DNA from: Verrucomicrobiaceae bacterium
GTDB taxonomy: Bacteria; Verrucomicrobiota; Verrucomicrobiia; Verrucomicrobiales; Verrucomicrobiaceae
DNA: 32,769 bases
Assembly: GCA_021298725.1 (NCBI GenBank)
Contig: JAJTDU010000025.1
Coordinates: 1 to 32,769, forward strand
Direction: 5' to 3'
Positions 19,889 to 21,373 of the stretch are shown here, piece after piece. A program made the translations under genes and the position numbers. Each line of letters begins with the position of its first letter. Position 1 is the first letter of the stretch. The notes beneath the pieces are model-generated. The model ran no database searches, was not told where the DNA came from, and saw nothing but the letters and a program-made list of their open reading frames with translations.

Positions 19889-21373
19889 TTACTTGGCGAC
19901 AACAGAGAATCCTTCTTTGCTGTCCTTGATCAGCCAGCCAGCGGCTTCGAGCTGCTTTCTCAAAGTGTCTGCTGTAGCCCAATCTTTCGCCTGTTTCGCG
20001 TCCCAGCGCTGTTGCGCGAGGGCTTGGATGTCTGGCGGAACATCGGCCGCGACTTCTTCGAGCACGGGAGGCAGAACGATGCCGAGCGTCTGGAGCATGA
20101 AATGCAGGCCGTTGCGCGTGGCGGCGGCTTCTTCGGGGTTGAGCGCGGCAGGCTTGAGCTTGTTCAGCGTGCCGAAGATGGAGCCAAGCGCACCGGGGAC
20201 GTTGAGGTCTTTGAGCAGGGTGTCCCAGGCTTCGGAGAAGGGACCTGGAGCGCGGACCTCCGAGTCCGCAGCAGGTGAACGAAGCGTTGAGTCACCGTCT
20301 GAGCTGGAAGGGGGATTGGAGTCGCTGGCGGAGTGCTGCGGGTTCGGAGACCCGCGCTCCAGCGCCTTGTCAGCCTTGGCCATTTTTTGCAGGGCCTGAC
20401 GCGCGGAGTCGAGGCTGTGCATGGTGAAGTTCAACGGGGCGCTGTAATGACCGGAAATCAGGACGTAGCGGACTTCAGCAGCGCTGTAACCGCGTTTGGC
20501 CAAGTCTTCGAGCGTGTAGAGGTTGCCAATGCTCTTGCTCATCTTCCCACCGTCCACCATGAGATGCGCGACGTGCATCCAGTGATGCGCAAACTTCCCG
20601 TGCGTGCTGCAGCAGCTCTGCGCGATCTCGTTTTCGTGATGCGGAAAGATCAGGTCCACGCCTCCGCTATGCAGATCGAAGTCTTCGCCGAGGTATTCGA
20701 GAATCATCGCGCTGCATTCGAGATGCCAGCCGGGCCGGCCCTCGCCCCAAGGGCTGGGCCAGAAATTTTCGCCGTCTTCGGGCTTGCGGGCCTTCCACAG
20801 GGCAAAGTCAGTGAGCGAGTCCTTCGTGTATTCGTCGCTGTCAGTCGCGCTGGCCGCTTCGCTGGCGCCGAGACGCAGTTCGCGGTCTTCCAGGTGACTG
20901 AGCTTGCCGTAGTCTTTGAACGAGGAGACGCGAAAATACACGCTACCATCCGCCGCCGCGTAGGCATGGCCTCCAGCGGCGAGTTTTTCGATCATTGCGA
21001 TCTGCTGCGGAATGTGGGCCACCGCGCTGGGCTCGATGTGTGGGCGCAGCAGGTTCAGGGCATCGCAATCCGTGTGAAACTTGGCCGTCCAGCTCTGGGT
21101 GAAGTCGATGAGGCTCTGACCGGCCTTTTGGGAGTCGCGGATCGTTTTATCGTCCACATCGGTGATGTTGCGGACATGCAGCGTCGGCGTGCCGGAGGCC
21201 TCAACGACGCGGCGCATCACATCCTGGGCCACGAAGGTGCGGAAGTTGCCAATGTGCGCCGGACCATAGACCGTGGGACCGCAGCAGTAGAAACGCAGGG
21301 TTTGGCCGTCGAGCGGCGTCACTTCGCGGTCGGTGCGGGTCAGCGTGTCGTGGAGAGTCAGATGGGCGGGCAT
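19889..21373 (-). CDS. cysS: Cysteinyl-tRNA synthetase carrying an in-frame repeat insertion
   Basis: Class I aminoacyl-tRNA synthetase that charges tRNA-Cys. 494 residues: '[20 protein letters not shown]' (zinc Cys and the HIGH motif as HIGN, 40-43), '[12 protein letters not shown]', '[17 protein letters not shown]' and KMSKS (277-281, in '[10 protein letters not shown]'). Between the anticodon-binding helices (about 339-376) lies a Ser/Pro/Asp-rich stretch encoded by a REP-like palindromic doublet (20247-20360). It is 38 codons and keeps the frame. The C-terminal helical domain resumes normally ('[28 protein letters not shown]'). ATG 21373 was used; no Shine-Dalgarno sequence is seen. Confidence 0.95.
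20247..20360. repeat. REP-like palindromic doublet inside cysS
   Basis: Two 27-base units (20247-20273 and 20334-20360) lie in inverted orientation around a 60-base spacer; pairing extends to 20245-20362 (CTGGAGCG...CGCTCCAG). Each unit is itself a hairpin: GCGGAC-CTCCGA-GTCCGC (20252-20269) and GCGGGT-TCGGAG-ACCCGC (20338-20355). The units differ at four positions, all paired within the stems, so both stems are kept by compensatory changes. This is the architecture of REP/REPIN elements spread by RAYT transposases. The insert length, 114 bases, preserves the cysS frame. Confidence 0.85.

Follow-up and report, generated by a model that had tools for sequence, protein, structure and literature searches.

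An In-Frame REPIN in the Cysteinyl-tRNA Synthetase Gene of a Verrucomicrobiaceae Bacterium

How does a palindromic repeat come to lie within the reading frame of an essential gene, and does it thereby become a working part of the protein? This question is raised by cysS in the window (the whole stretch of 32,769 nucleotides from contig JAJTDU010000025.1 that was analysed). An initial annotation described a REP-like doublet in this gene and suggested that it might be a domesticated element, a repeat becoming protein. From the evidence below, the block is very probably a REPIN of a RAYT-linked family that sits in a variable loop of CysRS as a tolerated, near-neutral passenger, with its stems kept paired by processes at the DNA level. 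The case offers a phylogenetically framed, RAYT-linked REPIN in an essential gene whose close relatives have empty sites, so that one can test directly how such elements within genes are tolerated, lost and perhaps spread laterally.

The Palindromic Block and the Loop It Encodes

The host gene (19889..21373, minus strand) encodes cysteine--tRNA ligase of 494 aa (TIGR00435, 418 bits against a cut-off of 340), and it is the single match for cysS in the genome to which the window belongs, a MAG of 3.49 Mb in 289 contigs that is 82% complete (G000) and that named relatives put in or close to the Verrucomicrobiaceae. An inverted-repeat search of the gene found two arms of 29 nt each, at 20245-20273 and 20334-20362, which are separated by 60 nt and complementary at 25 of 29 positions (86%). 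The REP unit in each arm closes a 6-bp stem over the loop CTCCGA or its complement; its consensus, 23 nt long, is GGAGCGCGG-NN-CTCCGA-NN-CCGC. The first unit, GGAGCGCGGACCTCCGAGTCCGC (20247..20269, plus strand), has an identical copy at G000:C45:13974 and others elsewhere. The second, GGAGCGCGGGTCTCCGAACCCGC (20338..20360, minus strand), is a compensated stem variant that is present in other genomes of the genus. Between these inverted units lies a spacer of 68 nt (20270..20337), and the whole forms a hairpin, which is the architecture of a REPIN. The four differences between the units amount to two compensated pairs (AC/GT versus GT/AC), just as the initial annotation had proposed. Its statement that the block is exactly 38 codons long holds for the exact REPIN bounds, 20247..20360 (114 nt, CysS residues ~341-377), but not for 20245-20362, since 118 nt is indivisible by three. 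The assignment of this segment as an in-frame REPIN draws on the inverted repeat, on dispersed copies and on absence in most relatives.

A palindrome that arose by chance, or an ordinary low-complexity loop, has virtually no probability as an explanation. It could appeal to the loop of other species, which is variable and repetitive. However, in 40 synonymous-codon shuffles of cysS the best 29-nt inverted repeat had 17-21 matches, always below the 25 observed, and the recurrence of the exact unit described in the next section speaks against it as well. The doublet with its 6-base hairpin loops was thus confirmed by search and shuffles alike. RNA folding of the block gave -58.6 kcal/mol (z -5.5), and none of 200 shuffles was equally good.

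In an AlphaFold model of CysS built with 44 homologues, residues 347-362 have pLDDT below 50. This stretch lies between helices 318-338 and 377-387, in agreement with the earlier placement of the block between CysRS helices, and block means exceed 90 on either side. The best fold match of the model is the E. coli CysRS-tRNA(Cys) complex (1u0b). The insert therefore appears, in the model, as a disordered loop of ~37 residues between intact helices, at a site where the CysS loop varies in length and sequence across the family.

Dispersed Copies and a Cognate RAYT

Of 68 genomes of the family, 23 contain units with the CTCCGA loop, and these 23 belong to a single genus; the reversed pattern, used as a control, had 0 matches in the same 68 genomes. 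Such dispersal refutes a chance palindrome. G048 has 35 units (up to two mismatches allowed), and G021 has 27 exact ones. Copy number in G000 is low, at four doublets in the 82%-complete MAG including that in cysS; the other three with the same loop lie at C45:13974-14135, C110:4115-4261 and C110:5006-5169. The element is repeated in the genome, and its remaining copies are mainly extragenic. Apart from the cysS copies, 35 sampled doublets measure 147-267 bp, some pairings on one G021 contig overlapping. The cysS copy, with 114 bp, is shorter than every one of these and, judged by its length, is not a fresh standard copy.

Among the doublet-spanning frames that were searched against Pfam, cysS gave the only match, and none of the other sampled doublets has a spanning gene supported by frames and Pfam. 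Long ORFs do run across other doublets, but they were rejected as genes: four of the longest have no Pfam match and look antisense or intergenic. Rickettsia palindromic elements are palindromic repeats that lie in frame in many protein genes. The cysS block resembles them, by description only, as a palindromic repeat in frame in a protein gene. In contrast to those elements with their many host genes, cysS stands alone here among the sampled doublets.

The initial annotation had also suggested a search for a RAYT gene, and one is present. It encodes 229 aa at C110:4262-4951 of G000, between two of the CTCCGA doublets, and is identified as a REP_Tyr_transpos protein by profile (NF047646, 87.5 bits against a cut-off of 80) and by structure (TnpA-REP, PDB 4er8, E 1e-5). 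Its orthologues in G023 (85%) and G021 (73%) are likewise flanked by CTCCGA doublets, so that in all three genomes the cognate RAYT is accompanied by the same units. A different RAYT lineage, present in G000, G045 and G052, has ACTCCT-loop doublets around it instead, and short TTTTA-type loops stand on the flanks of a third RAYT of G000. Such pairing of loop sequence with transposase lineage is the signature expected of REPtrons. In G000 these two further REP families, each around its own RAYT, lie on contigs C46 (L055, loops ACTCCT/ACTCTT) and C94 (L056, loops TTTTA/TTGCA).

Both the structure of the doublet and its association with a RAYT agree with the account of REPINs given by Bertels and Rainey (2011; PMC3116915): an inverted REP doublet forms a hairpin with its spacer, the RAYT is flanked by the same units, and remaining copies are mostly extragenic. 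The cysS copy differs from those REPINs in being intragenic, in being shorter than its relatives and in its tag. The 5′ tag of the CTCCGA family is GGAG or GGCG instead of the common GTAG, the tetranucleotide that stands 5′ of the palindrome throughout the GTAG-tagged REP superfamily. Because of this tag, and because a separate GTAG-tagged palindrome is present in the same genome, the CTCCGA family was kept apart from GTAG REPs. That canonical palindrome, GTAGCGCGGAATTCCGATTCCGC, occurs in five copies on contigs C7, C39 (two), C55 and C163 of G000, one of the five with a base change.

Carriers, Empty Sites and the History of the Insertion

Most cysS genes of the same genus lack ~26 residues at the insertion point, and relatives without the block are up to 97% identical to the G000 CysS over residues 1-348. 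The block is thus absent from most same-genus genes rather than conserved without its palindromes, and the unit has further copies in the genome; both results favour a REP insertion. Two other genomes, G021 and G048, carry a 114-bp doublet in cysS at the same site and in the same orientation as G000, that of G048 being offset by one codon. The spacers of G000 and G048 are identical at 57 of 68 positions, far more than with any other REPIN compared, which indicates a common origin for these two inserts. In G021 the middle of the spacer has no recognisable relation to them. Its inversion by template switching was considered and set aside, as the inverted alignment was unconvincing once several tests were allowed for. 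A DNA search of the genus for the spacer returned no second near-identical source, but as it also missed the known G048 copy (84%), that negative carries little weight. Empty cysS loops vary in length and sequence, there is no clean empty site, and target-site details are unreadable.

The three carriers do not group together in cysS trees, whether made from the 5′ part, the 3′ part or the whole gene, or in those of proA. G000 groups with G022 and G052, G021 groups with G042, and G048 falls near G047 or near G027 and G059 depending on the part of cysS. This lack of monophyly leaves two histories: one old insertion with roughly a dozen subsequent losses, or lateral movement of the insert. That an ancestor shared by the two clades acquired the insert once and passed it on vertically, with many later deletions, is a serious possibility, though its probability falls somewhat short of even. 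It would account for the homologous spacers of G000 and G048 at the same site and for the ERG or DRG codons retained at the left edge in some empty alleles. However, these codons also occur in more distant relatives, so they need not be remnants and are indecisive as an excision footprint. The dozen or so losses required (counted by eye on the tree) and the low synonymous divergence of the spacer (pS 0.22 between G000 and G048, against 0.53 for the gene; Fisher p ~0.014, ~18 sites) also weigh against it.

The same divergence hints at lateral spread, but the sites are few, and constraint on the DNA could depress it as well. That one cysS-resident REPIN of 114 bp moved between species to the same site after they had split, whether a short piece of cysS recombined or the element inserted anew, is a real possibility, though less likely than not, and is compatible with the identity of the block as a REPIN passenger. 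The scattered carriers and the agreement of the three inserts in site, orientation and 114-bp length suit this scenario; the mid-spacer of G021, which has no recognisable relation to the other two, does not. No transferred tract was found in the flanking parts of the gene either, trees from before and after the insert both placing G000 among non-carriers. Unlikely, in our estimation, is a REPIN that spreads between species to the same cysS codon as a homing passenger, with its hairpin corrected at the DNA level while its peptide drifts.

Three assemblies deserve mention. The cysS contig of G051 (L084) ends within the same loop at GGACCGCGGACGTGC, which is REP-like, and the assembly break may lie on the repeat. 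In G023 (97% complete) and G033 (93%), the assemblies contain no real cysS match.

Constraint on the Peptide and on the Hairpin

In the preferred reading, a RAYT would have inserted the REPIN where a variable loop joins two helices immediately after the CysRS catalytic domain (for RAYT cleavage chemistry, see PMC8266576). As the units are free of stop codons and the surviving copy spans 38 codon-lengths, a disordered loop would have been added in frame, which CysRS presumably tolerates, and the REPIN would persist as a passenger with little or no effect on fitness. Pairing of the stems may be kept by template switching from arm to arm or by exchange with other REP copies.

A benefit to CysRS, for instance in RNA binding or in regulation by an mRNA hairpin, is very unlikely to be the reason why the 37 residues persist. 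The frame is intact in three species and the mRNA hairpin is strong, but disorder is predicted, most relatives lack the block, and pN/pS is ~0.5-1.0 in the insert against ~0.06-0.3 in the gene flanks, a comparison whose power is weak on so short a sequence. Between G000 and G021 the arms differ at six positions, all in compensated pairs, and most of these changes alter an amino acid. The three stem variants found in cysS are also present elsewhere in the family. Hairpin pairing is retained at the expense of the residues. Loose constraint on the protein, together with paired changes in the arms that alter amino acids, makes functional domestication unlikely as well as unproven; nothing points to a function of the block, and the idea of a repeat becoming protein is unsupported. 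Template switching in inverted repeats is known to produce paired changes in hairpin arms, in coding sequence too (PMC8794818; PMC8604942), and it could account for those in the cysS block, exchange with other REP copies being equally possible. When a coding palindrome shows paired changes, selection on the protein is not necessarily the cause.

The location inside a gene, which the initial annotation had regarded as out of the ordinary, is not new. Intragenic REPs were described by Di Nocera et al. (2013; PMC3733652), who found that dimers or groups coding for 20-30 residues made up over half of the inserts and that the genes hit include tRNA synthetases of X. oryzae, E. litoralis and S. alaskensis. 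Intragenic GTAG repeats were most abundant in a verrucomicrobium, Opitutus terrae, where many genes are concerned. The cysS REPIN is like these REP dimers, which lie in ORFs, tRNA synthetases included, and code for 20-30 or more residues; it is an addition to the in-gene REPs already known. It differs from them in its host, cysS, in the empty sites of many relatives and in being shared by three species.

A different arrangement of REP units was seen in G034, where a series of at least four on one strand (L281, contig C5) lies upstream of a gene whose product seemingly starts with a signal peptide.
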